From positions 1 to 34,592 of the forward strand of contig JAPKMU010000006.1 in assembly GCA_026645745.1 (NCBI GenBank): a stretch of DNA of 34,592 nucleotides, in the 5' to 3' direction. Of this stretch, positions 9,781-28,114 are shown in pieces. The notes under the pieces were generated by a model. The model made no database searches and was not told the DNA's origin. It worked only from the letters and a program-made list of their open reading frames with translations. The first letter of the stretch is position 1. Each line of letters starts with the position of its first letter. The translations under genes were made by a program, and so were the position numbers. Source of the stretch: Anaerolineae bacterium. Lineage in GTDB: Bacteria; Chloroflexota; Anaerolineae; Aggregatilineales; Phototrophicaceae.

Positions 9781-12069
9781 TTACGCACTGCCCCCCGTAT
9801 CCTCTTGGTGATCGACCATCTCAACAGGTTGTTTTGCGGAATCCGCGTTCATCGCTTCGCGCGCAAACGCATATCCGATCAAACCAATCCCCAGTCCGAG
9901 CGGCAGCAGCCAAGGGCTGATCTGGATAATCCAAACAGCGAGCTGTGCGATACCAGCGCCGATCCAGACCAGCACAGTGAATCCAACCACCGCAATCGCC
10001 ATCTTCAACAGGGGGATGAAAACATGCCGGTACAAAAACCGTAGAATCTCGCGCCAATACCTGATCACCAGCGCAGCAGCAAGCACAGCAAATGCGATCC
10101 GCGCCGCATCCAACCGCCAGACCAACATTAGCCAACCGGAAATGACCAGCGTCGTATACGCTGCCATCACGCCTGCCTGTGACCACCGTTTGCTCCGCGC
10201 TTCGACCACCCAACCGCCTACGCCTATAACCACCATCAGCAGCATAAACAGCGTTTGCGGATCAAGCGCAATCAGCCATGCGAGTTTTAGACCAATAAAC
10301 CCGATTTGAAGGATGGCAATCGGCATCCAGTAGGCTGCCCGCGTCCGCGCAATCGCTTCGCCGCACAAAATCAAGCCGATCACCGATGCCATGATCGCTT
10401 CCGGCACTGTGTAAAACACCATCAGCAAGCCGATCAGCCACAGCATCCAACTCGCGCTGTAGATCATCCAACCGGACAAGCGCGGCATCGTCATCAGCAT
10501 GCGCCCCAGCACAAACCATCCTGCGCTCAAAGCAACCAGCGTCATTCCCTGCTGCGCTGTCGGCATTCCAGTGTAGTTCAAGAGGACTAGAACCCATACA
10601 GCGCCCATCCATCCACCAATGAGCAAAAAAAGATTCCGGAAATTGCCATTCAAAAACGGGCTGAGTTCAGGCGGGATCAGCCGATCAATCAACCCCACCC
10701 ATACCGGATGTCGTCCTGCGATCACCAGACTGCTGGTGACGAGCGCCGCGATCACGACGATTCCAAGCGACAGCGGCAGCCAGAGTGCACTCTGCAAGGT
10801 GAGTGTTAGCCCTAAAAGGAGATAAAGATACCCGACCGCAAAGAATGGCAGTCTCATCGCTGGGCGACGATGGGTCAGCGAGTGACCGAGCGCGATCAAG
10901 CCGAGTGCCAATACCTGCCACTCAACGCCCATCAGCGGCAGCGACCACAGCGACGGCATCCAATACGTGAGTAACAGCGCATACGGAAGCGGCAGCACGA
11001 TCAGCGCGGCATACAAAAGCGCGGGCAGCCGATAGAGCAGCCCCGCCGCGATCCACAAACCGCACGTCACTAACAGCGTAATCGTCACGATGAGCGGGGA
11101 TGCCGCATCGATATTCCGCGCTGTCCACAGCAGGATCAGCACGGTTAACCCCAGTGCGAGATCTGCCAGCGCCCATCCGGTGACTGCTTCAACAAGGGTA
11201 GTTTCACCTTTGCGCTTGTTTTTGTGCAGTGTCGTCCAGATTCGTTCGGTGAGTAAGGCGGCAGTCGCCATGAGTGCCAACCATAAGCCAAACGCGCCGG
11301 TAGCGTTCAACCAGTCGAAGTAAAACACAATCCAGCCGCCGCCAATCAGCCATACGCCACCGTGCGCTGCAAGCAGTTGGTCGCGCCCCATCATGACGAG
11401 CAGGAAAACGCCGCCGAGGATCAGTGTCAGCGAGGTACTAAACGGACTCACAACGGCATTGGCACGCAAAAATAGGCTCAACCCAATTGAACCGATCACG
11501 ACCATAAGCGCACCGATGCGGTACGAGTTCACCCATCGTGTGTCTTGGCAGATGCGCGGCACACCAAACCACCAGATCGCCGCGACCGATAGCAAGAGCG
11601 GGGCAACCCAATGCGGCGGCAGGAGAAAGTATCCCATCAATGACCATGCAGCGCTCACTTGAAGAATCAGCACCAGCGGGTACAGCGCCGCAAAGCGCAC
11701 ACGGTGTCCGGTGATCGTTACCAGCACCGCCACCACGACGATCCCCAATCGCCACAGCACTTCCCCGCCTTCGATTAAATGTGTCTTTGTAGAAAGGTGC
11801 AGCAGACCTGCTGAAAGCATCCATGCACCCGCCGCCACAATCCCGCGCGGAACCAACATGGCACGCAAGTATCGCATCGCCAAGCCGCCGATCAGGTAAA
11901 ACAGCGCGGGCGCGGTCAGCGACATCAACACATGTGCAAAGAAAAATGGCGATGTCAAATCGCGCATCAAGAACGCGGTCGAGCCGACGATCAGCGCGAT
12001 TCCCCCATAGAGCGGAACTTGAAGCTGATCGGTCTCCGTTGTTCGGAGGAATGATTGGGTCTGCATCAT
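9781..12069 (-). CDS. Very large polytopic membrane protein of unknown function
   Basis: 762 residues from ATG 12069. I do not recognise the family. Almost the entire protein is hydrophobic, with roughly 24-28 membrane segments in an unbroken series and only short basic loops (such as LHKNKRKGE), and a short acidic C-terminal tail (QPVEMVDHQEDTGG). There is no visible soluble domain, nucleotide-binding motif or metal-binding cluster. A GTG at 12117 would add 16 residues, but ATG-ATG at 12069/12066 has GAGG 3 and 6 nt upstream and is preferred. It lies 95 bp downstream of the histidine kinase on the same strand, with a 7-bp inverted repeat (12115-12121 / 12139-12145) in between, so it is probably the last gene of the signalling operon. 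It could be a transporter, a glycan-handling membrane protein or a partner of the sensor. Confidence 0.75.
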   Translation of the reverse strand: MMQTQSFLRTTETDQLQVPLYGGIALIVGSTAFLMRDLTSPFFFAHVLMSLTAPALFYLIGGLAMRYLRAMLVPRGIVAAGAWMLSAGLLHLSTKTHLIEGGEVLWRLGIVVVAVLVTITGHRVRFAALYPLVLILQVSAAWSLMGYFLLPPHWVAPLLLSVAAIWWFGVPRICQDTRWVNSYRIGALMVVIGSIGLSLFLRANAVVSPFSTSLTLILGGVFLLVMMGRDQLLAAHGGVWLIGGGWIVFYFDWLNATGAFGLWLALMATAALLTERIWTTLHKNKRKGETTLVEAVTGWALADLALGLTVLILLWTARNIDAASPLIVTITLLVTCGLWIAAGLLYRLPALLYAALIVLPLPYALLLTYWMPSLWSLPLMGVEWQVLALGLIALGHSLTHRRPAMRLPFFAVGYLYLLLGLTLTLQSALWLPLSLGIVVIAALVTSSLVIAGRHPVWVGLIDRLIPPELSPFLNGNFRNLFLLIGGWMGAVWVLVLLNYTGMPTAQQGMTLVALSAGWFVLGRMLMTMPRLSGWMIYSASWMLWLIGLLMVFYTVPEAIMASVIGLILCGEAIARTRAAYWMPIAILQIGFIGLKLAWLIALDPQTLFMLLMVVIGVGGWVVEARSKRWSQAGVMAAYTTLVISGWLMLVWRLDAARIAFAVLAAALVIRYWREILRFLYRHVFIPLLKMAIAVVGFTVLVWIGAGIAQLAVWIIQISPWLLPLGLGIGLIGYAFAREAMNADSAKQPVEMVDHQEDTGGSA

Positions 12070-12164
12070 ACGCCTCACATGTTTTGATCCAGCGTAAAGC
12101 AGACGAAGATCAAACACGATGCGCGCGCGTCATTCCCTCATCGTGACAAGCGCACAGATTCCCA

Positions 12165-13406
12165 TCACGGGAGCGGCAGTTCAACTGTAAATGTGCTGCC
12201 CTGCCCCGGGTTACTCTGCACTTTGATCGTGCCGCCGTGCAGCCGCGCAAGTTGAAGCGCAATATCCAACCCCAAGCCAACCCCAATCCGGCGGCTGTCC
12301 AGTTGAACAAACGGCACAAATACCAGTGCTTGCTGTTCCGCCGGGATGCCGATCCCCGTATCACGCACCTCGATCAGCAGCATTTCCCCGCGCCTATATG
12401 TCCGCACGCCAATTTCGCCGCGCGCCGTATATTTCGCCGCATTACCGATTAAGTTGGCGACGATCTGCCGTAGTCGCACCGGATCGCCGTGATAGGTGGG
12501 AAGCGCATCATCACACTCAACTTTGAGCGCTACCCCCGCCACCAGCGCCGGACGATGTTCTTCAGCGGCAGCACGGCAGATAGCGTTTAAATCGCATGGT
12601 TCACGCTGAAGGGTCAGCTTGCCTGTGTTCAAGTGCGCGCTGTCCAGTAGATCGCTTACCAAGCGGTTAAGCTGCCCGCTTTCTTCGATGATTTGCGCGA
12701 GATACTGCTGCTGCGTCTGAGTAAACTCGGTGCGCTTGAGGAGCTTGGCAAATCCGAGAATCGAGTTCAGCGGTGTGCGCAGTTCATGGCTCACCCGCGC
12801 GAGAAAGTGTTGGCTTTGTGCGCGTACTTGCTCTGCAACATAGGCAGAGTTGATCTCAATTGCTAGATGATTCAAAAACTGAAGCGTCTGAAACACGAAT
12901 GCACCCAGTAAAATGTTATAGCTCACCAGCAAGTAAGACGGCGGGTGAACCTGACGCAGCACGGGCAGCACCTCGTAAATCAGGCTGATCCAAAACGCCG
13001 CAATGCACCCCGCTTGAATCAAGATGCGCTGCCGTCCGGTGAACAGCATCCCCGCGAACGTGTACGGAATGATGAACGTGAGCGCTGTCACTGCACCCAA
13101 GCCGCTGATGATCAGCCCTTGAATCAAAAACAGCGCGAGCATACTCACCAGCCAAATCGATGCCCACTTCGTGTAAAACCCGAACAGATACACAAGCGCC
13201 ACGCACATCGCCAGCGCACCGTATAAATGCGGGTACGGCAGTTCTTGAAACGCTGCCGATGCCCACAGCAGCATTTCGCCAAGTACGAGCTGCCAGCCGC
13301 GTGCACGCCAATACGTATTCACCTGCTGGGCTGCCTGCCGCTGAACCGCTGTTGGCAGCAGATTATCGTCATCCACCCAAGGCGCGTTTAAAAGTTTCTG
13401 CCACAT
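12165..13406 (-). CDS. Membrane sensor histidine kinase
   Basis: 413 residues. About six membrane helices occupy residues 38-180 with almost no extracytoplasmic domain, so it probably senses a membrane or intramembrane cue. A short linker leads to the HisKA/DHp domain, H-box VSHELRTPLNS with His207, and second helix YLAQIIEESGQLNRLVSDLL. The ATPase domain follows: N-box with N318 and N322 (IVANLIGNAAKYTA), G1 DTGIGIP (349-355), F-box FVPF (363-366) and G2 GVGLGL (375-380). All catalytic motifs are intact. The ATG at 13406 lies inside the upstream REC gene (38-bp overlap). A GTG at 13376 would reduce the overlap to 8 bases, and neither has a strong Shine-Dalgarno. Its likely partners are the REC and the REC-LuxR-DHp proteins encoded just upstream. 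Confidence 0.9.
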   Translation of the reverse strand: MWQKLLNAPWVDDDNLLPTAVQRQAAQQVNTYWRARGWQLVLGEMLLWASAAFQELPYPHLYGALAMCVALVYLFGFYTKWASIWLVSMLALFLIQGLIISGLGAVTALTFIIPYTFAGMLFTGRQRILIQAGCIAAFWISLIYEVLPVLRQVHPPSYLLVSYNILLGAFVFQTLQFLNHLAIEINSAYVAEQVRAQSQHFLARVSHELRTPLNSILGFAKLLKRTEFTQTQQQYLAQIIEESGQLNRLVSDLLDSAHLNTGKLTLQREPCDLNAICRAAAEEHRPALVAGVALKVECDDALPTYHGDPVRLRQIVANLIGNAAKYTARGEIGVRTYRRGEMLLIEVRDTGIGIPAEQQALVFVPFVQLDSRRIGVGLGLDIALQLARLHGGTIKVQSNPGQGSTFTVELPLP

Positions 13407-13728
13407 GATCTGGGTCTAAGGGTTTCGCTAAATAATCGGTGACAACTGCCGGAAAACGCTCACGCTGAATCGATTCCGCATACGCCGAAACAAGGATCAC
13501 CGGGGCGGGATGAATAGTCGTCACCACTGCTGCCAGCGCCGCGCCGTCTGTATCCGGCAGATCGAGGTCAAGCACATATAAATCCGGGCGTTCCCTTTCT
13601 GCCGCTGTTCGCGCTTCGCTCCCATTTCCCACTGTGATTAAGCGATAGGGGGTTAAATCGCTTACTATCGCGCTCATTAGGAACCGCGCAGGGGGGTGAT
13701 CTTCGACGCACAGAATCGTCTTTTGCAT
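13369..13728 (-). CDS. Stand-alone response-regulator receiver (REC) protein
   Basis: 119 residues consisting of a single receiver domain. It has the acidic pair E9/D10 in CVEDHPPARFLM, phosphoacceptor D54 in YVLDLDLPDTDG, the Ser switch in VILVSAYAES and the conserved Lys in DYLAKPLD. No output domain follows, which fits a phosphorelay intermediate or phosphate sink, like CheY/Spo0F-type proteins. ATG 13728 gives the usual receiver N-terminus MQKTILCVEDH. A GTG at 13749 overlaps the stop of the preceding gene as GTGA and would add seven residues, so that start is also possible. It is sandwiched between the REC-LuxR-DHp gene and the kinase gene and overlaps both or nearly so. Confidence 0.85.
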   Translation of the reverse strand: MQKTILCVEDHPPARFLMSAIVSDLTPYRLITVGNGSEARTAAERERPDLYVLDLDLPDTDGAALAAVVTTIHPAPVILVSAYAESIQRERFPAVVTDYLAKPLDPDHVAETFKRALGG

Positions 13729-13745: not shown

Positions 13746-14549
13746 TCACTCTTTCAAACCTTCGATCAGTCCGTCCAGCCGTTCTGCTTCAAGGATCAAC
13801 TGCTGCAAGTATTCGGCGTCTGCCGCATCGAGCGAACCATTACGCTCAAGACGACTTTGCAGCAGGCGGGCTAAGCCGATGAGGGCGTGCAGGGGAGTCC
13901 GCAATTCGTGACGCACAGCCGCACCGGGTTTTGGCAGTTCGCGGAGCTGCTGCGCCGCTTTGACTGCCGCCTCACGGGTATCCACGCCTAATTTGGTGTA
14001 GATGTTCGAGATGTGGTTGCGGATCGTGCCGTGCGCCACGCCAAGCATGTCCGCAATCTCCGGGTTTGCGTGTCCTTCAGCCGCCAAGCGCAGAATCGCC
14101 CGTTCGCGCGGCGTGAGGGTGAATTTCTGGCGCGAACTCGCCAGTGCTGCCGCCGCTGTTGGCGATAAAAACATCCGCCCAGCAGTAACCGCGCGGATTC
14201 CGTCTGCCAACCGCAATGAAAAGTCGTCGCTCTTGACCACGTAGCCGCCCGCGCCCGCATTGAGCAGTTCTTCAATCCACACCGCATCGTCATGCCCCGT
14301 TAGCACGAGAATACCCATGTAGGGATAACGCGCTTTCAGGTCACGGACGGCAGCAACAGGTTCAAACTGCTGACGGGTATACGACAAATCCATCACCAAT
14401 GCATCAGGGGGACGGCTGTTCACCAGTGTAATCATCTGGGCGGCGTCGGTCGTCTCCCAGATCACACGCAGATCAAGTTCTTTCGCCAATTCCTGCCGCA
14501 CGATCTTTAAGATCAGCGGGTGATCATCCATCAATGCGACGCGGATCAT
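13746..14549 (-). CDS. Response regulator REC-LuxR HTH with a C-terminal histidine-kinase DHp hairpin
   Basis: 267 residues from ATG 14549. This start is chosen because MIRVALMDDHPLIL is a typical NarL/FixJ N-terminus, GAGGA lies 7 nt upstream, and longer versions would overlap the divergent asnB. REC domain 1-122: D8/D9, phosphoacceptor D54 (VMDLSY), T84 and K106, all intact. LuxR-type HTH 141-203: LTPRERAILRLAAEGHANPEIADMLGV and TIRNHISNIYTKLGV. Residues 210-267 are odd: AAVRHELRTPLHALIGLARLL (His214) and YLQQLILEAERLDGLIEGL have the sequence and spacing of the two helices of a HisKA dimerisation domain, yet no ATPase domain follows. It could bind DNA as a dimer held by this hairpin, or accept phosphate in trans from the neighbouring kinase. 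Confidence 0.9.
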   Translation of the reverse strand: MIRVALMDDHPLILKIVRQELAKELDLRVIWETTDAAQMITLVNSRPPDALVMDLSYTRQQFEPVAAVRDLKARYPYMGILVLTGHDDAVWIEELLNAGAGGYVVKSDDFSLRLADGIRAVTAGRMFLSPTAAAALASSRQKFTLTPRERAILRLAAEGHANPEIADMLGVAHGTIRNHISNIYTKLGVDTREAAVKAAQQLRELPKPGAAVRHELRTPLHALIGLARLLQSRLERNGSLDAADAEYLQQLILEAERLDGLIEGLKE

Positions 14550-14629: not shown

Positions 14630-16570
14630 ATGTGTGGAATTCTCGGCATGTTACGGTACAACGGCGTGGGCATCGACCCGCGTGTGATCGCGGAGGGTGC
14701 ATCGATCCTACGCCATCGTGGACCGGATGGTGACGGCTATGTGTTGATCAACACCGCATCCGGCGCATCCGATTCACGCATAGGTGACGATCCGCCTCCC
14801 GGTATTACATTTCCGCACTGGTCGCAGCCGTCCGCCTTCCCGCCTGATCTGATCCTCGCCCAGCGCCGCCTTGCGATCATCGATCTTTCACCCACTGGTC
14901 ACGAGCCGATGACTGTTCCCGGCGGTGCATATTGGCTGACGTTCAACGGTGAAATCTATAACTATCTCGAACTGCGCGATGAACTCCGTGCTCTAGGGGT
15001 GACATTTCGTACTGAGTGCGACGCCGAAGTGCTGATTCAAGCCTATGCCACATGGGGAATCGACTGCCTCAGCCGCTTGATCGGCATGTTCGCGTTCGCA
15101 CTCTGGGATCAACCGAACCAGCGGCTTTTTTGTGCGCGCGATCATTTGGGGATCAAGCCCTTTTACTATGTCAACACACCGGATCGATTCGCATTTGCAA
15201 GCGAAATGAAGGCTTTCAAAGCGCTTGCGCCTGAAGCACTCCAACCCGATCACGATCAATTGATGTGGTTTTTGCGCTACGGCATGATCTACAACGCGCC
15301 GCATACGTTCTATGAAGGCGTGCGCGAACTCCCCGGCGGGCATTATGTGATCGTGCAAGATGGACAGGTTAGCGATCCGGTGCGCTGGTGGGATGTCGAT
15401 CTCGAACGTGCACGTGCTACCTACAATTATGCCGACCCTGAAGGTGAGTTTCTCCGCTTGATGCAAGATTCGGTCAAGCTTCAACTTCGGAGCGATGTTC
15501 CGGTCGGAACGTGTTTGAGCGGCGGACTCGACAGCAGTACGATTGTTGCGCTTAGTACCGCGCAGCTCAACGGCGGAAGCATGAACAGTTTTTCGTCCGT
15601 GTATCCAGTCAAAGGGCTGGACGAAACTCACTTCGTTGGACTGGTTGAAAACCGCTATCACACCATCCAGCACCGAGTCACGCCTGCCCCTGCTGACTTC
15701 TTCACCCGCCTGCAAAAAATCACATGGCATCAAGACATCCCGACCGCTTCCGCCAGTTTGTACACACAGCATCATGTTATGGAGTTGGCGCACGGAAACG
15801 TCACGGTACTGTTAGATGGTCAAGGCGGTGATGAATTATTCGCCGGGTACTTGAATTATGTTGTCTACTATTTAAGCGATCTTCGCCGCCGCGATCCTAT
15901 CCGCTGGGTGCGCGAAGAAACCGCATTTATCACCGGACTGCGGTCGCGCTTCAACGCTTCGTTGAGCGGGCGCGAATTCGTGAATCGCATTGTGCAGTAT
16001 CTCCGGCACGGTCGCCGCCCACTAAACGTGCTCAAACCGGAGTGTCACACCGCCGCTGACCAGCGTGAACGGGCAACGCCGCGCCGCCAGCTTACGGGTG
16101 CGGATGCGCTCAACAATTTTCTGTACGGCGCGATTGTGCGCGACAGTATCCCCTCACTGCTGCATTACGAAGATCGCAACAGCATGGCATACGGCATCGA
16201 AGCGCGCGTGCCCTATTTGGATCATCGCATGGTTGAATTCGCGCTCGGTGTGCCATCCGAGCAGAAAATACGCGGTATCGAGACCAAGTGGTTCATGCGC
16301 CGCGCCCTACGGGGAATCCTCCCCGACACGATCATTGACCGACGCGACAAACTCGGCTATCCAACGCCGTTCGCGCAGTGGCTTCGTACCGATCTCAAGA
16401 GCGATGCACAGGCGATCCTGTTCGACGGTGCTGCGCGCCGCACGTGGATCGACTCCGCTGCCGTAAAAAACATCTGGGATGCACACCAAAGCGGTACACG
16501 CGATCTCAATCACACCATTTACCGTTTGATCACGGCGGAAATGTGGTACGCCGCGCAAGTGGGAGCATAA
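14630..16570 (+). CDS. asnB: Asparagine synthase (glutamine-hydrolysing), AsnB type
   Basis: A 646-residue two-domain amidotransferase. The N-terminal nucleophile Cys2 (MCGILGMLR) and RHRGPDGDG start the class II glutaminase domain, with FNGEIYNY (105-112) and ECDAEV. The synthetase domain has the PP-loop SGGLDSS (297-303), GQGGDELFAGY and EARVPYLDHRMVEFAL. It adenylates a carboxylate and transfers ammonia from glutamine. Compared with E. coli AsnB, about 30 extra residues (roughly 40-72) interrupt the glutaminase domain, as I recall for some cell-surface-locus homologues. GAAGGG lies 8 nt before the ATG. It stands at the head of a glycan gene cluster, so it may amidate a uronic acid or peptide rather than (or besides) aspartate. 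Housekeeping asparagine synthesis cannot be excluded. Confidence 0.92.
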   Translation: MCGILGMLRYNGVGIDPRVIAEGASILRHRGPDGDGYVLINTASGASDSRIGDDPPPGITFPHWSQPSAFPPDLILAQRRLAIIDLSPTGHEPMTVPGGAYWLTFNGEIYNYLELRDELRALGVTFRTECDAEVLIQAYATWGIDCLSRLIGMFAFALWDQPNQRLFCARDHLGIKPFYYVNTPDRFAFASEMKAFKALAPEALQPDHDQLMWFLRYGMIYNAPHTFYEGVRELPGGHYVIVQDGQVSDPVRWWDVDLERARATYNYADPEGEFLRLMQDSVKLQLRSDVPVGTCLSGGLDSSTIVALSTAQLNGGSMNSFSSVYPVKGLDETHFVGLVENRYHTIQHRVTPAPADFFTRLQKITWHQDIPTASASLYTQHHVMELAHGNVTVLLDGQGGDELFAGYLNYVVYYLSDLRRRDPIRWVREETAFITGLRSRFNASLSGREFVNRIVQYLRHGRRPLNVLKPECHTAADQRERATPRRQLTGADALNNFLYGAIVRDSIPSLLHYEDRNSMAYGIEARVPYLDHRMVEFALGVPSEQKIRGIETKWFMRRALRGILPDTIIDRRDKLGYPTPFAQWLRTDLKSDAQAILFDGAARRTWIDSAAVKNIWDAHQSGTRDLNHTIYRLITAEMWYAAQVGA

Positions 16571-16576
16571 CCCCAA

Positions 16577-17830
16577 GTGCGGATCACAATTTTGACCCAA
16601 TTTTATCCGCCGGAATTCGGCGCGGCAGCAATCCGCCTAAGCCGTTTGGCGCGTTTGTTAGCGGCAGAGGGGCATCAGGTCACCGTGCTGACGGGTATGC
16701 CGAATTATCCCGAAGGTGTAATTCCGTCCGCGTATCGCCGCAAGATTTTCAAACGAGAAACGGTTGATGGCGTCCACGTGCGCCGCGTGTGGGTGTATGC
16801 CAGCCCATCCAAACGCGCGCGCGCGCGTCTGCTCAACCAATTCAGCTTTTTGGTGATGGCAGCGCTGCGCGGGACATTTCTCGCGCGCCCCAATGTATTT
16901 CTCGTGGAATCGCATCCCCTGCCGATTGTGTTAGCGGCGGGCTGGCTCAAACGCATCAAACGCGCCCCCATTGTCCTCAACGTCTCGGATTTATGGCCCG
17001 AGTCGGCGGTTGCGACAGGTGCGTTAAGTGCAGACAGCCGGATGGTCAAAATCGCATCGAGAATCGAAAAGTGGGCATATCACGATGCCGCGCAGATCAT
17101 CTCGATGACACAGGGGGTTCATGATGGAATTTTGCAGGTGCATCCCCACCCTGATCGGGTGACGTTGATACAAAACGCAGTTGATCTGGAGCGTTTCAAA
17201 CCGGGCGGTGATAAACTGCGCCGCGAAGTGCGCGAAAATTACGGCATCGGGGAGCAGTTCACAGCGGTGCATGTCGGCAACATGAGCTTGACCTATGATT
17301 TTGACATTCTTTTAGAAACCGCCGCTGCACTCCCTAAAATGGCATTTCTATTCGCGGGCGGCGGCTCACAAGAAGCGGATATTCGTAAGAAAGCAGCAGA
17401 GCGCGGTTTGAAAAACATTATCTTCGCGGGAGTTCTCCCTCATGCGGATATGCCGGGAATTTGGGCAGCGGCAGACGCCAGTTTGATCGCCCTCCGCGAT
17501 CATTCGGTTGCTGGCGGAACGCTCCCCGCTAAAATGTACGAATCGTTGGCGACAGGAACGCCTGTCGTCGCAGCGATACGCGGTGAAGGCGCGACGCTCA
17601 TCGAACAAGCGGGAGCGGGCATCGTCGTTCCCATCGGGGATGCTGCTGCTTACGTCGCTGCACTTCTGCGGCTCGCAGACGATCCGGCGCTCCGCGAGAA
17701 AATGCGCGCTGATGCCCGTGCTTATGCTGAACGCCACCTCTCACCGGATCGCGTCAAGTTGCGCTACATTGAACGCTTTGAACAAGCTCTCCATCTGAAG
17801 CAGCACACACCGAAGGACAAACAATCATGA
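16577..17830 (+). CDS. Glycosyltransferase family 4 (WbuB/WcaI-like)
   Basis: A 417-residue GT-B glycosyltransferase. The N-terminal domain begins MRITILTQFYPPEFGAAAIR and holds VTVLTGMPNYPEG and VSDLWPESAVATGAL, segments typical of WbuB/WcaI-like enzymes of O-antigen and exopolysaccharide loci. The C-terminal donor domain has VHVGNMSLTYDFDILLE, FAGGGSQE and the E-x7-E region LPAKMYESLATGTPVVA. It probably transfers a sugar from a nucleotide donor to a lipid-linked acceptor on the cytoplasmic face. The start is a GTG six bases after the asnB stop; no strong Shine-Dalgarno is close, so asnB translation may feed it. Its stop overlaps the next gene as ATGA. A (CG)7 tract (16814-16827) lies within it. 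Confidence 0.9.
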   Translation: MRITILTQFYPPEFGAAAIRLSRLARLLAAEGHQVTVLTGMPNYPEGVIPSAYRRKIFKRETVDGVHVRRVWVYASPSKRARARLLNQFSFLVMAALRGTFLARPNVFLVESHPLPIVLAAGWLKRIKRAPIVLNVSDLWPESAVATGALSADSRMVKIASRIEKWAYHDAAQIISMTQGVHDGILQVHPHPDRVTLIQNAVDLERFKPGGDKLRREVRENYGIGEQFTAVHVGNMSLTYDFDILLETAAALPKMAFLFAGGGSQEADIRKKAAERGLKNIIFAGVLPHADMPGIWAAADASLIALRDHSVAGGTLPAKMYESLATGTPVVAAIRGEGATLIEQAGAGIVVPIGDAAAYVAALLRLADDPALREKMRADARAYAERHLSPDRVKLRYIERFEQALHLKQHTPKDKQS

Positions 17831-18861
17831 CCCCTCGTCCTCTCAAACTGGCGGTGATCGGGTGCGGACGTATTGCGCCACGTCACGGTCAAGCGCTTGA
17901 AACCATCCGCGAGTCCCATCAGGTTGAAATCACCGCAGCATGTGACGTAATCGAAGCCCGTGCCAAACACTTCGCGGATGACTTCGGTGGTGATGTGTAT
18001 ACCGATTACCGCGCCGTGTTAGATCGCCCCGATATCGATCTGGTCACGGTATGCGTACCTTCCGGTCTGCATGCGCAAATCGGAATCGATGCGGCAAAGG
18101 CAGGTAAACATGTCCTCGTTGAAAAGCCAATCGCGCTCACCACAGCCGATGCTGATGCGCTTATTGATGCTTGTGATGCTCAAGGCGTCACGCTCGGCGT
18201 TGTCCTGCAAAATCGCTTTAATCCGCCGATGCGTGATCTCCGCGCTCTGGTCGATTCAGGCGATCTCGGCAAGATTGTTCTGGGCGGGATTACCGTACGC
18301 TGGTATCGTCCTCAAGAATATTATGAGGATGGATGGCATGGTACATGGGCGATGGACGGCGGTGCGCTCATGAACCAATCAATCCATCATATCGATGCGC
18401 TTCAGTGGTTGATGGGCGATGTCGAAAGCGTGTTCGCGTATACGGGAACTCTCGTTCACACGATGGAAGCCGAAGACGTGGGCGTGGGCGTTGTACGCTT
18501 TAAGTCAGGAGCGCTGGCGACAATCGAAGGTTCAACCGTTACTTACCCTGAAAACCTCGAAGCCTCAATTGCACTGTTTGGCGAAAAAGGATCGGTGAAG
18601 GTTGGCGGAACGGCGCTCAACCGTAAAGTCTTCTGGAAAGTCGCCGGACAAATCGAACACGAGCGCGAAATCCTCACCCGTGAAGCGGTCGATCCGCCAA
18701 CGGTGTACGGTTACAGCCACCGTGAGCAGATCATTGAGATGCTCGATGCTGTCCGTGAAAACCGCCGTCCATCAACGCATGGACGCGAGGCGCGGCGCTC
18801 TTTAGCGCTTGTAAGCGCTTTGTACGAATCGGCACGCACCCGCCGCGAAGTCTATTTCTAG
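17827..18861 (+). CDS. Gfo/Idh/MocA-family NAD(P)-dependent oxidoreductase
   Basis: 344 residues. The N-terminal Rossmann domain begins with LAVIGCGRIAPRH (nucleotide-binding G12-G14), then ITAACD, TVCVPSGLH and the family-typical LVEKPIALT (97-105, with Lys100). The C-terminal alpha/beta domain has DGGALMNQSIHHIDALQWLMG, with H187 or H188 and D190 in the usual catalytic positions. Family members in glycan loci oxidise nucleotide sugars at C3 (WlbA/WbpB-like). The start overlaps the GT4 stop by four bases (ATGA), so it works in the same pathway and probably prepares a donor sugar. Its stop shares CTAG with the stop of the convergent transglutaminase-like gene. Confidence 0.9.
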   Translation: MTPRPLKLAVIGCGRIAPRHGQALETIRESHQVEITAACDVIEARAKHFADDFGGDVYTDYRAVLDRPDIDLVTVCVPSGLHAQIGIDAAKAGKHVLVEKPIALTTADADALIDACDAQGVTLGVVLQNRFNPPMRDLRALVDSGDLGKIVLGGITVRWYRPQEYYEDGWHGTWAMDGGALMNQSIHHIDALQWLMGDVESVFAYTGTLVHTMEAEDVGVGVVRFKSGALATIEGSTVTYPENLEASIALFGEKGSVKVGGTALNRKVFWKVAGQIEHEREILTREAVDPPTVYGYSHREQIIEMLDAVRENRRPSTHGREARRSLALVSALYESARTRREVYF

Positions 18862-19676
18862 AGATCAGGGAATAATTCACGCCAGTTCGTGCTGTCAAAC
18901 TGCACATACGGTTCGAGCGGCGGGAAGTAGCTAATTCCCATTAACGGCAACCGGCGGCGAAGCCGCTGCATATCATACCCTTCATCAAGGTGCAGGCGCG
19001 CTTCCGGGCGGTTCACATCAAGGAGCGGTGTGTAGAAATAGCGGTATTCGCGCACCGCTTGTTCTAGCATCTCAAAACCGCTCCGGCTGATCCATGTGTT
19101 CGTCGTTGAGTCGAATAGTTCCCATTGGTCATCAACACGAATTTCGAGCCACGCATGTTCACCGTCCGAAACGAGTACGCGCCATGTTAGTCCAAGCCGC
19201 TCCGCTACGCGGAACTGGGCGTACGTCACCGTTGCGCAGTGACCGCGCTCTTGTGATAGAAACTGCACAAGCGAAGTGGGAAAATCGGCGACACCGTATA
19301 CATAGCCAATGTGAATCAAGTACATGCTAAACAGACCCGCAAGCCGGTCAGGGTGATCTTCGCGCCATAAAACTGCCAGCCGTTCCTGATTTTCGGCATA
19401 ATATGCAGCGACAGCGTCAAGAATCTCGTCATCCGTTTGCGCGCCAGCCGCCGCGGCGATTTCATGTAAGGTTGGCACGTCGGGTCCGGGCATCGCATCA
19501 AACACATAATCCGCTGCTGATAGGGTTGGCGTTGATACTGGCGTAGAAATGGCGATGGGACTCACGAGTTGTCTAAGCTCTGGTTGATAAAACTGTTGGC
19601 TCACGATGACAACCAACACAACCAACGACGTGGTGATCAGCAGGGGGATTGCGTATATGATTCTACGTTGAGTCAC
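18858..19676 (-). CDS. Membrane-anchored transglutaminase-like (papain-fold) protein
   Basis: 272 residues from GTG 19676, chosen over TTG 19697 because GGAG lies 6 nt before it. An N-terminal signal-anchor helix (IIYAIPLLITTSLVVLVVIVS) is followed by a Ser/Thr/Pro linker (SPIAISTPVSTPTLS) and an extracytoplasmic domain. The transglutaminase-like triad is visible: Cys147 in RGHCATVTYAQF, His174 in DGEHAWLEIR and Asp189 in ELFDSTTN. Family members are cysteine proteases, amidases or cross-linking enzymes; the reaction here is unknown. It is transcribed against the surrounding glycan genes, converges on the oxidoreductase with a 4-bp stop overlap, and diverges from the next glycosyltransferase across only 41 bp. 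It may act on surface protein or peptide. Confidence 0.75.
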   Translation of the reverse strand: MTQRRIIYAIPLLITTSLVVLVVIVSQQFYQPELRQLVSPIAISTPVSTPTLSAADYVFDAMPGPDVPTLHEIAAAAGAQTDDEILDAVAAYYAENQERLAVLWREDHPDRLAGLFSMYLIHIGYVYGVADFPTSLVQFLSQERGHCATVTYAQFRVAERLGLTWRVLVSDGEHAWLEIRVDDQWELFDSTTNTWISRSGFEMLEQAVREYRYFYTPLLDVNRPEARLHLDEGYDMQRLRRRLPLMGISYFPPLEPYVQFDSTNWRELFPDL

Positions 19677-19717
19677 GGTATTCTCCGAGCCTACCAACGC
19701 ACGCAGGAGCGCGCACG

Positions 19718-20887
19718 ATGAAACAACACCACATTTGCGTGATCTCGCTCGCGCTTCCCATTGAAATTGATCCGCGCACAGGACGACATGTTGAAGTATT
19801 GAGCCAGCATTTTGATGTTACCTTTATCGGGTTTGGAACGCCATCACCGACTTGGCAGGTTGCGGTTAAGCCAATTGATGTTTCTTCGGGGAGACTGCGT
19901 CGGTTGTTTGAGATTCTCCTGCTGGTCATCGGTCGGCTAATTCCATACGCCTATGCGGTGTATTTCTGGACGCGTCCCCGTTATCGTCAATCCCTTGCTG
20001 CCGCCATCGAAGCGCGCCCTGATGCCTATCATGCAGCAGACTGGGCAACTCTCGCAGTTGCGGCACGCGCGGCTCAGCTGACCGGCGCGAAAGTCGTTTT
20101 CGACATTGACGAATATTGGGCGCTCTTTGACGAATCTAAACGTATGTGGCTCTGGTTCTTCTCACCGTTGATCCGCTACACGCTCAAGAAATATGAAAAA
20201 CACGTCGATGCTTCGATAACGGTATCGCGCCCATTTGCAGAACGTTACGAGAAAGAGCACGGTTGGAAGCCGATCATCGCTACCAACGCTCCTTATTACG
20301 TAGAATCCCCCGATCATGAAACCGATCCGGATCACATCATACTGATTCATCACGGAACGGCGCTGCGTGATCGCAAACTAGAAACCTTGATCGAGATGGC
20401 AGTACTGCTCGATCAGCGTTATACACTTCACCTGATGATTGCCGCAGACCGCTCGGATTATCTTCCTGATCTGCGCCAGCTTGCCGAGCGTGTCGCACCG
20501 AATCGGGTGATATTCCGCGAACCTGTTCCATATTCCCATGTCGTACAAACGATTGCCGATGCCGATATTCAAGTCGCGTTTATGGCACCCACCACCTACA
20601 CATGGCTGATGACGCTGCCTAACAAAATTTTCGAGTCAATGATGGCGGGATTGGCAGTTCTCGTTGCGCCGTCGCCTGCTATGGCAGATGTCGTTCGCAC
20701 AGCCAACGCTGGTTGGGTCGCAGACGGATTCACGGCGGCAGATTTGGCACGGATCTTTAATGCCTCGCTATCGACGACATCCGCGAAAAACGCCGGAATT
20801 GCCCGTGCTGCTGCCAAGTTCACCAACGTTGAAACTGAGATCGGGCAGATTCTCAACTTATATCGTCACCTTTTGGAAGGAAAATGA
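19718..20887 (+). CDS. Glycosyltransferase (GT-B, GT4-like)
   Basis: 389 residues. The GT-B fold is suggested by an N-terminal domain with ICVISLALPIEIDPRTGRH and YHAADWATLAVAARAAQLTG followed by VVFDIDEYW, then a donor domain with ILIHHGTALRDRKLETLIEMAVLL, NRVIFREPVPYSHVV and LPNKIFESMMAGLAVLVAPSPAMADVV (the GT4-like E-containing donor loop). The ATG at 19718 has AGGAG 8 nt upstream. Its stop region overlaps the next glycosyltransferase as ATGA, so the two form one unit. It probably adds a sugar to the same surface glycan as its neighbours; donor and linkage are unknown. Confidence 0.85.
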   Translation: MKQHHICVISLALPIEIDPRTGRHVEVLSQHFDVTFIGFGTPSPTWQVAVKPIDVSSGRLRRLFEILLLVIGRLIPYAYAVYFWTRPRYRQSLAAAIEARPDAYHAADWATLAVAARAAQLTGAKVVFDIDEYWALFDESKRMWLWFFSPLIRYTLKKYEKHVDASITVSRPFAERYEKEHGWKPIIATNAPYYVESPDHETDPDHIILIHHGTALRDRKLETLIEMAVLLDQRYTLHLMIAADRSDYLPDLRQLAERVAPNRVIFREPVPYSHVVQTIADADIQVAFMAPTTYTWLMTLPNKIFESMMAGLAVLVAPSPAMADVVRTANAGWVADGFTAADLARIFNASLSTTSAKNAGIARAAAKFTNVETEIGQILNLYRHLLEGK

Positions 20888-22071
20888 ATGTGCATTTACT
20901 AATTGTTCCTTCGTACTTTCCAAATGAAGTGACGTACCTCACCGGCAGCTTCTTTTTGGAACAAGCGTATGCGCTCCATAAGGCAGGGCATCAAGTTGGC
21001 GTGATCGTTCCTCCTTGGCTGAAGGTTACACTAGCGCGCATTCGTCAGCGCAGGTTAGCTCCACTCATGCGGTTGACACGTGAGCAGGAATTCACCGATT
21101 TTCCGGTTTACCGCATGCATTGGGGTGCATTTCCCCGAATTCTGCCCGTGATTGCGGCACCGCTAGCACTTGTTGCCGCCGAATGGGCGTTGAAGCAGTA
21201 CATCGCACAGCATGGCAAGCCGGATATCCTTCATGGTCACGATGTGTTTTACGGGGGGTATATCAGCGCAATGTTGGGCATCAAACATCGTATCCCATCC
21301 GTGTTAACCGAGCATTCCACGCGCTATATGGAAGGCAAAGTGATCCTTCCCGGTCAGCGCCCTATCCTTCGCCAAGCGCTGCGACAAAGTCGATCAGTGA
21401 TTTGTGTTAGCCAAGCTTTACTGGAATCCCTTCGTGACTTCTTGCCAAATCTCGAAGGTATTGTCATTCCAAACTTGATCGATACCGACTATTTCAGCCT
21501 TGCCTCCTCTCGTAATGGCAATCCATGCACATTTTTCGCAATTGGATCGGCTGAACCCCGCAAACGCTTTGATTTGTTGGTTGAAGCGTTTCATGCGGCG
21601 TTTAGGAGCGATCCCAAGGCTAAGTTAAAAATTGCTGGAGAAGGATCAGAAACTTCGTTGATCAAGGCGCAAGTTACAGCGCTTGGGCTAGACAACCAAG
21701 TGGATTTATTAGGGCGTTTAAGTCGGGAGCAGGTACGCAAAGTGATGCAGGATTCACATGTTCTCGTATCTAGCAGCCAGATTGAAACATTTGGTATAAG
21801 TCTGATCGAAGCGCTTGCGTGCGGAAAACCCATTATTTCCACTGCATCCGGTGGCGCAAACGATATTGTTACGCCTGACGTAGGGTTGCTTGTGCCCGTC
21901 GATGACTTAGAAGCCCTGACCAACGCGCTGAAGCAAATGCTCGATCAGCATGCAACATACGATCCACAAAAACTTCGTCAGATATGTATCACACGCTACA
22001 GTGAATACGCTGTTGTTGCCGAACTTGAGCGTGTTTACGATCGAGTTTCACACTCTGTCCTGCATATGTAG
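20884..22071 (+). CDS. Glycosyltransferase family 4
   Basis: A 395-residue GT4 enzyme. LIVPSYFPNEVTYLTGSFFLEQAYALHKAGH opens the acceptor domain; GHDVFYGGYISAMLG and PSVLTEHSTRYMEG follow. The donor domain carries FAIGSAEPRKRFDLLVEAF, LLGRLSREQVRKVM and the classic E-x7-E loop SSQIETFGISLIEALACGKPIIS. The ATG overlaps the stop of the previous glycosyltransferase by four bases (ATGA), implying coupled expression. The base composition looks slightly more AT-rich than the flanking genes. It ends 118 bp from the convergent, frameshifted GT2 gene. Confidence 0.92.
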   Translation: MNVHLLIVPSYFPNEVTYLTGSFFLEQAYALHKAGHQVGVIVPPWLKVTLARIRQRRLAPLMRLTREQEFTDFPVYRMHWGAFPRILPVIAAPLALVAAEWALKQYIAQHGKPDILHGHDVFYGGYISAMLGIKHRIPSVLTEHSTRYMEGKVILPGQRPILRQALRQSRSVICVSQALLESLRDFLPNLEGIVIPNLIDTDYFSLASSRNGNPCTFFAIGSAEPRKRFDLLVEAFHAAFRSDPKAKLKIAGEGSETSLIKAQVTALGLDNQVDLLGRLSREQVRKVMQDSHVLVSSSQIETFGISLIEALACGKPIISTASGGANDIVTPDVGLLVPVDDLEALTNALKQMLDQHATYDPQKLRQICITRYSEYAVVAELERVYDRVSHSVLHM

Positions 22072-22189
22072 CGCTTAATGCAGTTGATATCAGGGAAACC
22101 CATTGAAGAAGGCTACCCTACGAACCATTCGCGAAGAGGTACCAAAGATACAAAAGCTGTAGGAATTACAGATACTCCTGCAAATGTTC

Positions 22190-23136
22190 CTAATCGGGTA
22201 GAAGTCGTCCCCGGTTTAGGCGAAACACCAGCTTATCTAGTGCGCTGGCGAATGATGTATGCAGCACACAGTCAACTGCAATTGCGGCGGCAAGCACACG
22301 CCGACCATTCCGTTTGCCCCGAATGAAGCGTCCGGTCAGAGGAAGCGCTTCCGAGCGTTTCCCTTGCACGTAATGATGCTTGAGCATCCGCCAATCGAGA
22401 TACAGTGATGCTTCTTCATGCGCGGCGCGCACCTCTGGCGCAAGTGCTGGTTCAGCGAACACGCGGCTGATCACAATGCGCATCTCGTTTTCAAACTTGA
22501 ATGCCTGACTTACGCTCTTGCTCGTTGCATGAAGTCGAAATGCGCCGCGAAAACCCGGCACATAGCGGATTTCGTACCCTGCCAACGCCATGCGAATCCA
22601 ATAGTCATAATCCATGCAGTAGTGCAGCGATTCGTCAAACAGCCCGATCCGATCCATCACTGGCGTCGCCAAAATGTTCCCTGCTGTGGATTCGGCTGCC
22701 CACCCGTGATCGCGCTCACAAGTGAGTAAGGACGCGCGCGAAAATCTCCATACATTGTACCGTCTGCGCGGATCAGATTCGCATCCGAGAAGATCACGCT
22801 TACATCGGGATGAGTCTCAAAGTATTCTGCCGTGAACCGCACGGCACCCGGCAGCAGCAGATCATCCGAGTTCAAGTAGGTAAGGATTTCTCCCTTTGCT
22901 TGGCGCATCCCCTTGTTGATCGCGTCTGTCTGCCCGTTGTCTTTCTCGCTCACCCATGTCATGCGCGAATCATCGATCGATTTCAGTACCTCAAGTGTCC
23001 CATCGGTTGAGCCGCCATCCATCACGATCAACTCAAGTGCAGGGTAACCTTGGTCGAGCACACTCATGATTGATTCGCGGATAAACTGCGCTTGATTAAA
23101 CGAAGGCATCACAACCGATACAAGCGGATAAGACAT
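22190..23136 (-). pseudogene. Glycosyltransferase family 2, interrupted by a frameshift
   Basis: Two overlapping reading frames together make one GT2. The N-terminal half (22657-23136) starts MSYPLVSVVMPSFNQAQFIRE and has VMDGGSTDGT, AINKGMRQAKGE and the donor-binding YLNSDDLLLPGA. It breaks off after QQGTFWRR with a stop at 22657-22659. The C-terminal half (22190-22672) resumes in another frame with VMDRIGLFDESL and MDYDYWIRMALAG, exactly what follows TFWRR in this family. A -1 shift (one missing base) at about 22660-22668 restores a protein of about 315 residues. AAGGA lies 7 nt before the ATG. The other motifs are undamaged, so the shift is either recent or a sequencing error. It faces the opposite way from the flanking glycan genes. 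Confidence 0.8.
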
Positions 23137-23220
23137 GGAGCAGTCCTTATTGGTTACTCATCACAACGAAATGTACGATAATCTTGTGCCTGTTCGAGCG
23201 AGATAAAGCAAAGGCGAAAT

Positions 23221-25590
23221 ATGCGTCGACTCCCAACACTCCTGTTAGCATTTTACCTGATCTTTTTGGGTGGCAGCGCATACCATTCCCAGTTGTTTGT
23301 GATCCGCATCGCCCACCACGCGATCATGACCGTTCTCTTGGTGATCTGGTTAATCATCCGTATTCGGCGCGGTGTTGGGCTGCCGAGAACACCCTACAAT
23401 TGGCTGTTGATTGCGTTGATTGGTGTTTGGCTGTTTTCTGCCGGGTTTGCGCTTGATCCGCGCATCTCTTTAGAAAGCGCATGGTTTCCCATCACCCATG
23501 TACTGATCTTCTTCTACATCACCGCACTCTTTCAAGCGGGGCGCGGTAGAGTCGTCATGGAGACGGTTTTCATGATTGGCACGGTGATTGTCGTTGCGGC
23601 AGGCGCGCAAGCGATCACTTGGCTGAACGGCTGGCTTCCCCTCCTCAGCAGTGAACTCCCGTTTCCTCCTGTTCTTCCCCGGCTCGATCAACCTTTTGGC
23701 GTGACAACATGGCTGGGCGCATTCGCCGCCCCACTCATCTTAATCGCAATCGCGTGGGCGCTCACCGTGCGCCGACGCGATTATCGCCCGCCGCTCTGGG
23801 GGCTTGCTGCCGCGCTGACATTGATTCTCGTCTTGACGACATCGCGCGGTAGTTTTATCGCACTCGGTGTGAGCGTGAGTATTCTCGTGGCGCTCCGTCT
23901 GTGGAGTCGCCCATCACTCAACCGGATCATTCCGGTCGGTTTTGCCGCGCTGGTCGGCGTGGGGTTGATTGGCGGCGTGATCTTCTTGATCAGCCGGGAT
24001 GCATCGCGCGCAGGTGGCGACGTGCTTCGCGTTGATTTGTGGAGTACCGCAGTTGAAGCCGCGCAGGATGATCCCCTGACCGGTGTTGGCATTGGCATGT
24101 TCGGGCGTGCGCACCGCACCTACCGCGATCCCACCTATGTCGATGATCGACTCGGCACAGCGCATAACCTGTATTTGAACACAACCGCCGAAACCGGACT
24201 GCCGGGATTGCTGCTCGTGATCGCCCTAGCCATCATCGGCATGCGTGTATGGCGGCAGCAGTGGCGCAGCGCCGAGTCCGATGGGCGAAAGCTTAGGCTA
24301 GAAGCCGCTGGTGCAGCACTCATCGGGTTCGGGGTTCAAAGCTTGTTCGATACGTTCACGCTGACCAATACCATTCTGCTGCCGCTCGTCTTGGTCGCCT
24401 ACATCAGCAGTCCACCGCGCACCGCTGCCGATCCACCTATCAAGGGCAGTCAAGCTGCGGCAGGCATATTCGCTGTCCTGATTGCCGTTTACGGTGTTGG
24501 ATTCGCAATCTCCGACCGCGCACAGTCGTTGTTTGATCAAAGCGTCCGCACGCAGTCATTGGCGGCAGTCGAAGAAGCAGAGAGCCTTGATCCGCATCTT
24601 CGCTTATATGAACTCCAGCGCCTTTATCTGATTGCCTCCAATCCTGAAACGCCAACCAGCGAGGCAATCCGTGCCTACGAGCACGCGGTTGCGCTTGAGC
24701 CGACATGGGATGTCGGATGGATCAACCTTGTGCCGCTTTATCTTGCAGTGGATGACGTCGAGAGCACGCGGACTGCCCTCGAACGTGCCGCGAATATCAG
24801 CAATTGGAACGGCGCTTGGTTCGGATGGGCGTACCTAAGCGAACAACATAATCTCGCTTCGGCGGACGAAATCCAAGACGCTTACGTGCGCTCGATGGTG
24901 AATTTGCCCACGAATCGCGCGTTTTGGACGGAAACGCCCATACGCGAAGCAGCAGTTCAGGAGTATGCGGAAGCACAACCGCTTGAGGTTCGCTATCGCA
25001 CTTACGCGGCGATTTTCCCCAATCGCGCCGTCGAACTCGTCCCCTCGCATCCAGAAACGGCGGTCGAGTGGTGGATTGTCGGGCATCATGCGCTCACCAT
25101 CCTCAACGATTCGGCATCGGCGGATACTGCTTTCCCACAGGCGATCCAGCGCGACCCGGCACGCGGTGATTTTTACGTCTGGCGAGCGCTTGCGAGGCAC
25201 GAAACACCCGTACCAAGTGAGCCAACACTGGCAACTGCTGATCGCCTAGGCACGACTTATGACTCGGTAATCACTGCACAGTTGCAGCTTGCCGAATCAC
25301 CGGAACAGGTGCGGTTACTGCGAATCGAGATTGTCGGCAGCCGCTACATCGAACAAAACTTTGAAGGTGTGCTGTTTCAAGGACGCCGCGCGGAATTCCT
25401 CCGCATCAGCGAATGGTCAGCCGAACCCCTCACTGCCGAAGCCGCCGCTGTCTGGTTTGATCTTGCCGCCGATTTTGTTTCGCGCGGTGACCGCGAAACC
25501 GCCGCGCAGGTGCTGCGCTTATTCCTTGAACGCTACCCATCCAATACACAAGCGCGGGAGCAGTTGACCGCGATCGAAGGGAGTTCGTAA
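23221..25590 (+). CDS. O-antigen ligase/polymerase-like membrane protein with TPR C-terminus
   Basis: 789 residues. Residues 1-430 hold about 11-12 membrane helices with the Wzy_C/WaaL-type core: LTTSRGSFIALGVSV (R209), DDPLTGVGIGMFGRAHRTY and GTAHNLYLNTTAETGLPGLLLV, where His315 in AHNLYL is the usual ligase His. Residues from about 430 to the end are soluble, with TPR-like helical repeats (AIRAYEHAVALEPTWDVGWI and, near the end, AAQVLRLFLERYPSNTQA). Such proteins join undecaprenyl-linked glycans to lipid, protein or a growing polymer on the outer face of the membrane. AAAGG lies 6 nt before the ATG. The stop overlaps the next, related gene as TAATG. Confidence 0.87.
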   Translation: MRRLPTLLLAFYLIFLGGSAYHSQLFVIRIAHHAIMTVLLVIWLIIRIRRGVGLPRTPYNWLLIALIGVWLFSAGFALDPRISLESAWFPITHVLIFFYITALFQAGRGRVVMETVFMIGTVIVVAAGAQAITWLNGWLPLLSSELPFPPVLPRLDQPFGVTTWLGAFAAPLILIAIAWALTVRRRDYRPPLWGLAAALTLILVLTTSRGSFIALGVSVSILVALRLWSRPSLNRIIPVGFAALVGVGLIGGVIFLISRDASRAGGDVLRVDLWSTAVEAAQDDPLTGVGIGMFGRAHRTYRDPTYVDDRLGTAHNLYLNTTAETGLPGLLLVIALAIIGMRVWRQQWRSAESDGRKLRLEAAGAALIGFGVQSLFDTFTLTNTILLPLVLVAYISSPPRTAADPPIKGSQAAAGIFAVLIAVYGVGFAISDRAQSLFDQSVRTQSLAAVEEAESLDPHLRLYELQRLYLIASNPETPTSEAIRAYEHAVALEPTWDVGWINLVPLYLAVDDVESTRTALERAANISNWNGAWFGWAYLSEQHNLASADEIQDAYVRSMVNLPTNRAFWTETPIREAAVQEYAEAQPLEVRYRTYAAIFPNRAVELVPSHPETAVEWWIVGHHALTILNDSASADTAFPQAIQRDPARGDFYVWRALARHETPVPSEPTLATADRLGTTYDSVITAQLQLAESPEQVRLLRIEIVGSRYIEQNFEGVLFQGRRAEFLRISEWSAEPLTAEAAAVWFDLAADFVSRGDRETAAQVLRLFLERYPSNTQAREQLTAIEGSS

Positions 25591-27380: not shown

Positions 27381-27456
27381 TGACAGCGCATCATCATCAA
27401 CGGTGCTGTGTTTTAGTACTGTAGAAAAGCACAAAACAAACATGCAGGGGTCAGGA

Positions 27457-28089
27457 ATGGATGTCTTTGCAGCACTGCTGTACTTCGTGCTCGCGTACTT
27501 ACTCGGCTCAGTTCCAATCGGTTACCTGATTGGCAAGGCGCACGGGTTCAACATCTTTAACGAAGGCAGCGGCAACATGGGCGCGAACAATATCACGCGC
27601 AAATTGGGCTATTTTTGGGGTGGACTCACATGGTTTCTCGACAGCATGAAAGGAATCGGCGCGATCTTGCTGATTCGCGCCCTTGTCCCATCGGAAGAAT
27701 ACGCGTTGGCAACTGTGATCGGTGCAGTCGGGGCAATCGTTGGGCATAACTGGTCAGTTTTTGTCGCCATGATTACGGGTAGGCTGCGGGGTGGCAAAGG
27801 CGCGGCAACTGCTATCGGTACGTGGCTGACATTTTTCCCTCCGCTCATGATCGCCGGAGTGATGGCAATCTGGGTGTTGATCGTCGTGATCACGCGCTAT
27901 GTCTCACTCGCCGTGCTCGTAACGACAGGATTGGTCGCCTTGACTGTAATTGTCATGGTTGCGCAGGGATCATTCGCTCCGATCTTCTTGCTTTACTTGC
28001 TTGTGCCGATCATCGTGTTCTATCGGCATCGCGAAAATATCATCGCCCTCAGTGAAGGGCGCGAACGGAAACTCGGTCAGCGCATCTAG
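27457..28089 (+). CDS. plsY: Glycerol-3-phosphate acyltransferase PlsY
   Basis: 210 residues from ATG 27457, chosen because GGGG lies 6 nt upstream and MDVFAALLYFVLAYLLGSVPIGYLIGK is the family N-terminus. Earlier in-frame starts (GTG 27403, ATG 27442) would add a non-conserved tail. The three PlsY loop motifs are visible: GSVPIGYLIGK, NEGSGNMGANNITRKLG (the glycerol-3-phosphate site, usually GSGNxGxTN) and GHNWSVFVAMITGRLRGGKGAA. Five or so membrane helices fit the family. It transfers the acyl group of acyl-phosphate to glycerol-3-phosphate in the first step of phospholipid synthesis. It is followed 25 nt later by ssuE. Confidence 0.92.
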   Translation: MDVFAALLYFVLAYLLGSVPIGYLIGKAHGFNIFNEGSGNMGANNITRKLGYFWGGLTWFLDSMKGIGAILLIRALVPSEEYALATVIGAVGAIVGHNWSVFVAMITGRLRGGKGAATAIGTWLTFFPPLMIAGVMAIWVLIVVITRYVSLAVLVTTGLVALTVIVMVAQGSFAPIFLLYLLVPIIVFYRHRENIIALSEGRERKLGQRI

Positions 28090-28114
28090 ACACATCTCTA
28101 AGGGAGGCGGACGA

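Follow-up and report, generated by a model that had tools for sequence, protein, structure and literature searches.

The window, a stretch of 34,592 nucleotides from an Anaerolineae bacterium (contig JAPKMU010000006.1), carries on its minus strand a gene for a response regulator that continues into a histidine kinase hairpin at its C-terminus. The gene (RR-DHp) reads from an ATG at 14549 to a stop codon at 13746, and the same interval contains many stops when translated on the forward strand. Beside it lie a single-domain receiver (SD-REC), a partner histidine kinase, and a large membrane protein. The features are as follows:

13746..14549, minus strand: response regulator gene (RR-DHp), REC-GerE-HisKA, 267 aa (Pfam and orthologues)
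14229..14540, minus strand: REC domain of the regulator, residues 4-107 (Pfam Response_reg, E 6.4e-13)
13959..14120, minus strand: GerE (LuxR-type) HTH domain of the regulator, residues 144-197 (Pfam GerE, E 5.7e-16)
13752..13922, minus strand: HisKA/DHp hairpin tail of the regulator, residues 210-266, with helices at 210-237 and 242-266 (Pfam HisKA and AlphaFold2)
13369..13728, minus strand: SD-REC, between regulator and kinase (Pfam; conserved beside the kinase)
12165..13406, minus strand: partner kinase with N-terminal hydrophobic membrane region, HisKA and HATPase_c (Pfam)
9781..12117, minus strand: large polytopic membrane protein, 778 aa, directly 3' of the kinase (homologues in other loci)

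The phosphoacceptor residues are D54 in the REC domain of the regulator (codon 14390-14388), His214 in its tail (codon 13910-13908), an Asp in the SD-REC (codon 13569-13567), and His207 in the partner kinase (codon 12788-12786).

A NarL-type regulator with a HisKA tail

The regulator combines a REC domain with an intact Asp pocket (D9, D54, T84, and K106 are invariant in 12 of 12 family members) and a GerE HTH, both with NarL-family folds. Canonical NarL/FixJ regulators share this architecture and these folds but end at about residue 202-210 without a DHp tail, whereas all 12 members of this family continue beyond the HTH with a hairpin of 57 extra residues. The original prediction had described this hairpin as a genuine DHp (HisKA) domain lacking an ATPase domain and connected to the adjoining kinase, and we find the same; its motifs and residue numbering were also correct (D54, H214, AAVRHELRTPLHALIGLARLL at 210-230, and YLQQLILEAERLDGLIEGL at 247-265).

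The tail matches HisKA (PF00512) over profile positions 7-57 of 66 with 41.4 bits and an E of 1.5e-10 (cut-off 26.9 bits), and reaches 45.7 bits when searched alone; all 12 family tails score above the cut-off. At sequence level, a profile of the tails also picks out the DHp domains of histidine kinases with known structures (best E about 1e-5). AlphaFold2 with an orthologue alignment predicts the expected two-helix hairpin (helices 210-237 and 242-266), and the tail modelled alone has a pLDDT of 91. Its nearest PDB folds in Foldseek are HK853 chains (TM 0.77, rmsd 1.3), with an E of only 0.14 because the fold is tiny, and the top chains come from complexes with RR468. It is the His-to-loop part of the hairpin that docks receivers in HK853-type complexes.

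Beyond the hairpin the protein ends. Pfam finds no HATPase_c match in its 267 residues, as a histidine kinase would have, and the degenerate ATPase-like C-terminal domain of Spo0B and ChpT is absent. The HPt profile PF01627 has no match in the regulator or in its whole genome assembly.

Searches of relatives and then of the whole order (154 genomes) found the full-length tailed regulator in 12 genomes, all belonging to one order of Anaerolineae/Chloroflexi. The 11 other orthologues are 56-73% identical to the regulator in the window. Had the family ended at about residue 205, the tail would have been doubtful; the orthologues, at least 56% identical, all carry it, and the NarL-type regulators whose match stops at about 202 are paralogues with at most 42% identity. 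The next-best proteins in general have at most 42% identity, and nearly all of them lose the match soon after residue 202. A family scan covering about 85,000 species genomes, which by design can pick up only relatives of this regulator, gave hits in Anaerolineae/Chloroflexi alone, and the family's named records are all MAGs of that group. The presence of the tail in 12 genomes rules out a chance match or frame artefact as its source, and the conserved catalytic box, constant length, and gene order shared in several families rule out a pseudogene or truncated kinase.

Conservation within the regulator is highest in GerE and in the H-box helix. Mean pairwise identity is 62% for REC, 73% for GerE, and 65% for the tail, where the first helix reaches 75% and the loop 43%; since the tail is about as conserved as REC, it is under purifying selection at the level of the receiver. 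The H-box R213-H221 (RHELRTPLH) is invariant in 12 of 12 tails, as are G225, L226, A227, R228, L230, E254-R257, D259, and L261. The catalytic box is the most constrained part of the tail.

This pattern bears on whether the hairpin merely dimerises the regulator on DNA, with its catalytic residues as relics. DHp hairpins do dimerise, and this one follows the C-terminal helix of GerE, which is the usual dimerisation element of NarL-type regulators. However, the least variable part of the tail is the H-box, nine consecutive invariant residues in 12 members that diverge down to 56% identity, and the loop varies freely while this box stays fixed. We therefore consider a plain dimerisation module very improbable.

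The partner kinase and the origin of the tail

The order regulator, SD-REC, kinase is found in the window's genome and in eight others. Two further genomes (G151 and G066) have the SD-REC-kinase pair at a separate locus and still keep the tailed regulator; the SD-REC adjoins the kinase in every complete case. Kinase orthologues and regulators each occur in 12 of the 154 genomes, with 11 in common. The two exceptions are incomplete: in G106 (75% complete) the regulator reaches a contig end, and in G014 (78% complete) a contig begins with the SD-REC and kinase. Across the 11 genomes, the regulator and kinase distance matrices show a correlation of 0.86, to which shared ancestry contributes. The phosphoacceptor His is present in all 12 kinases, whose ATPase domain is intact, and the Asp and partner residues of the SD-REC are intact in the members examined.

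The transmitter of the kinase scores highest against models of the hybrid kinases TorS and BarA, and also against RcsC and ArcB. Hybrid kinases of this type reach NarL-type regulators via a REC and an HPt domain. With control genomes giving positives, PF01627 found no HPt in 10 of the 13 carrier genomes, including the nearly complete G066, and HPt domains were present in the other three. In the 10 genomes, no other canonical phosphotransferase is thus at hand, which makes the hairpin the natural candidate for a second His. Genome G000 (87% complete) has 88 HisKA matches above the cut-off and zero PF01627 HPt matches.

Two membrane features accompany the module. The N-terminal region of the kinase (12812-13406, minus strand, about 190 aa) has several hydrophobic segments and is conserved in 12 genomes; it matches no Pfam family and is possibly an undescribed membrane sensor domain. 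The 778-aa membrane protein at 9781-12117 has no Pfam or NCBIfam match. It lies downstream of the kinase in six loci including the window's, and its homologues after the kinase in five other genomes (L043, L044, L049, L050, and L107) have 710 (contig-cut) to 1178 aa. It is possibly a fourth member of the module.

The tie between hairpin and kinase turned out to be stronger than first noted: the tail was copied from the DHp of this very kinase, and the two genes share genomes even where they lie apart. In searches of the 13 carrier genomes with the tail profile, which had about 70-170 candidate sites per genome to choose from, the best non-tail match was the DHp of the partner kinase in each of the 12 genomes where the kinase is present, even where the regulator and kinase genes are unlinked. 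A tree built from 37 DHp segments places all tails in a single clade (100/100) and separates the tails together with the partner DHps from other kinases (96/98), the latter being a small set picked mostly by similarity. The tree has only 63 columns, and we therefore do not trust its finer branching. On these sequences, the simplest reading is that the partner DHp was copied onto the regulator once, anciently.

The copy has since diverged from the partner DHp in particular places. It retains the H, E, L, R, T, P, and L of the H-box and the His-to-loop part of the hairpin, has lost the upstream FLA segment and the upstream half of helix 1, and has changed at -1 (S to R), +7 (N to H), +8, +9, +12, and +14 relative to the His. 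Some of these positions correspond to sites that set receiver specificity in other kinases. Receiver contacts sit on helix 1 below the His (PMC3433190).

The shared origin of the two hairpins also raises the idea of a heterodimer, in which the tail would pair with the DHp of the kinase and either tether the regulator to the sensor or block the kinase until a signal arrives. RetS-GacS is an established example of one histidine kinase acting on another via direct contact, and the near-perfect co-occurrence of regulator and kinase would fit. The missing upper half of helix 1, however, would shorten the contact with the kinase bundle, and mere pairing would not demand an invariant His, Glu, and Thr. 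We regard this arrangement as improbable.

Proposed phosphotransfer and alternative roles of the hairpin

Because the module contains an SD-REC, the kinase has kept its His, and most carriers lack an HPt, we rank phosphotransfer between receivers first. The original prediction named trans-phosphorylation, transfer to a REC, and mixed dimers, but did not consider the SD-REC as an intermediate. The tail would be a built-in histidine phosphotransferase within a His-Asp-His-Asp phosphorelay of kinase, SD-REC, His214, and the regulator's own D54, a serious possibility that falls short of an even chance. Somewhat more tentatively, we suggest that the relay may do without a classical HPt: the kinase DHp copied onto the terminal transcription factor would act as a cis phosphotransferase, with transfer from His214 to D54 inside one protein dimer on DNA. 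A His-Asp-His-Asp relay would assign a role to each of the three proteins that constantly occur together, the kinase, the SD-REC, and the tailed regulator.

We infer each phosphotransfer step, its direction, and the dimerisation. The membrane kinase would phosphorylate its own His207 and pass the phosphoryl group to the Asp of the SD-REC, from which it would move to His214 on the C-terminal hairpin of the regulator and on to a REC of the same regulator dimer, at D54. Phosphorylation of D54 would then free the GerE domain for DNA binding. Immediately behind the GerE dimer, two hairpins would pair in the manner of Spo0B to give a four-helix bundle.

All four phospho-sites (kinase His, SD-REC Asp, His214, and D54) are intact in all members examined, as the relay would require. 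There is also precedent for the chemistry, as Spo0B and ChpT are dimeric DHp-type phosphotransferases rather than kinases, and ChpT is unable to phosphorylate itself from ATP (PMC3433190). Several observations speak against the relay. Spo0B and ChpT have a degenerate ATPase-like domain, whereas the tail has none; the tail H-box retains the E+1, T+4, and RTPL linked to kinase and phosphatase activity; and three carriers do possess HPt domains. The SD-REC has an aromatic residue on beta-5, which is typical of terminal receivers (PMC9981736), and in a profile search it is no more like Spo0F than KdpE or CheY, so nothing marks it as an intermediate receiver. Its FATGUY-type features of intermediate receivers (PMC9981736) are mixed, and we dropped them. 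We also dropped a kinship of the SD-REC with Spo0F as evidence: a single-sequence search ranks Spo0F high, but in the profile search Spo0F does not stand out.

The invariant residues around His214 suggest two other roles. In HisKA proteins, an acidic residue at H+1 is needed for kinase but not phosphatase activity, and a Thr or Asn at H+4 is needed for phosphatase activity (Willett and Kirby, PMC3510030); the Glu at H+1 and Thr at H+4 (T218) are both invariant in 12 of 12 tails. The hairpin might thus be a cis phosphatase or phosphate drain that dephosphorylates its own REC or the SD-REC, like the DHp of a bifunctional kinase, and so serves as a built-in off switch. The conserved T218 fits this role, as does retention of the His-to-loop part with loss of the upstream half of helix 1. 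Yet the His and E+1 are just as invariant, and E+1 serves kinase rather than phosphatase activity (PMC3510030); a phosphatase alone would also leave the conserved SD-REC unexplained. We judge it unlikely.

Alternatively, the ATPase domain of the partner could phosphorylate His214 in trans, as in a split kinase, followed by transfer from His214 to D54. As the tail was copied from the partner's DHp, the ATPase domain may still recognise it; its H-box keeps E+1, R, T, P, and L invariant, and CheA3-CheA4 provides the precedent of a kinase that phosphorylates an acceptor on another protein (PMC3591291). The kinase, however, has its own His, intact in 12 of 12 orthologues, and an intact ATPase domain, so that it needs neither the tail as acceptor nor a split. 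This route would also leave the SD-REC without a role, and the FLA segment upstream of the kinase His is lost in the tail, where the Ser at -1 has become Arg. It seems to us distinctly unlikely.

Comparison with known systems and surroundings of the locus

The phosphorelay proposed here most resembles KinA-Spo0F-Spo0B-Spo0A of B. subtilis in its four-step His-Asp-His-Asp logic, stand-alone receiver, DHp-type four-helix phosphotransferase built from two hairpins, and terminal DNA-binding regulator. It differs in that the hairpin proposed as phosphotransferase forms the C-terminal end of the terminal regulator itself and lacks an ATPase-like domain, the output domain is GerE rather than of the Spo0A type, and the hairpin originated as a copy from the partner kinase. 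In CckA-ChpT-CtrA of Caulobacter, an ATP-incapable phosphotransferase of DHp fold likewise joins a kinase receiver to a regulator (PMC3433190), but ChpT is a protein of its own that has an atypical domain of the ATP-binding fold, and CckA is a hybrid kinase. The GacS/BarA, RcsC-RcsD, and EvgS relays also lead from a HisKA kinase through a receiver and a second His domain to a NarL/FixJ-type regulator; their second His domain, in contrast, is an HPt and belongs to the kinase side instead of the regulator.

Among the models for the alternatives, CheA3/CheA4 of Rhodobacter sphaeroides also has its phosphoacceptor on a protein that lacks an ATPase domain, but its acceptor is a CheA-type P1, it includes no DNA-binding regulator, and the partner lacks an acceptor whereas the kinase here retains its own. 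RetS-GacS matches one possible mode here, a HisKA protein acting on another by direct contact, except that both partners are kinases bearing ATPase domains.

The original prediction knew of no named family with the order REC-LuxR-DHp, and this still stands within the genomes, plasmids, and open-access papers we searched. REC-GerE-HisKA proteins without an ATPase domain turned up only in this family, both in 400 genomes sampled from the phylum and in plasmids; the scan of species genomes (about 85,000) could find only relatives of the family, and the open-access literature yielded no description of the architecture. An independent fusion may exist in another phylum. No second such fusion appeared among the best 10 candidates per genome of a GerE+DHp profile in the 400 sampled genomes; the other matches stop in or shortly after GerE, or mostly continue only through stop codons. 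One plasmid match spanning 92% of GerE+DHp was rejected as the same fusion because it has no H-box.

The domains and chemistry are already known; what is new, as far as we could check, is how they are arranged and that the tail derives from the cognate kinase. The family shows a possible route to a phosphotransferase, in which the phosphoacceptor hairpin of a kinase was copied to a regulator and retained as far back as the lineage can be traced. If the phosphorelay is real, it would be a one-protein terminal stage and would explain how relays could operate in HPt-less genomes. With about 57 residues, no ATPase domain, and a DNA-binding protein as fusion partner, this minimal DHp would also be convenient for separating phosphatase, acceptor, and dimerisation roles.

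We looked for a conserved operator 5' of the regulator gene and found none. On the opposite strand beside the module, a series of asparagine synthetase, glycosyltransferase, and membrane-protein genes at 14630-28645 resembles a polysaccharide cluster. It is a possible target of the regulator; the neighbours of the module differ in other genomes. At 22190-23136 (minus strand), two overlapping ORFs of about 160 aa each look like the two halves of one glycosyltransferase, possibly separated by a frameshift or an assembly error.
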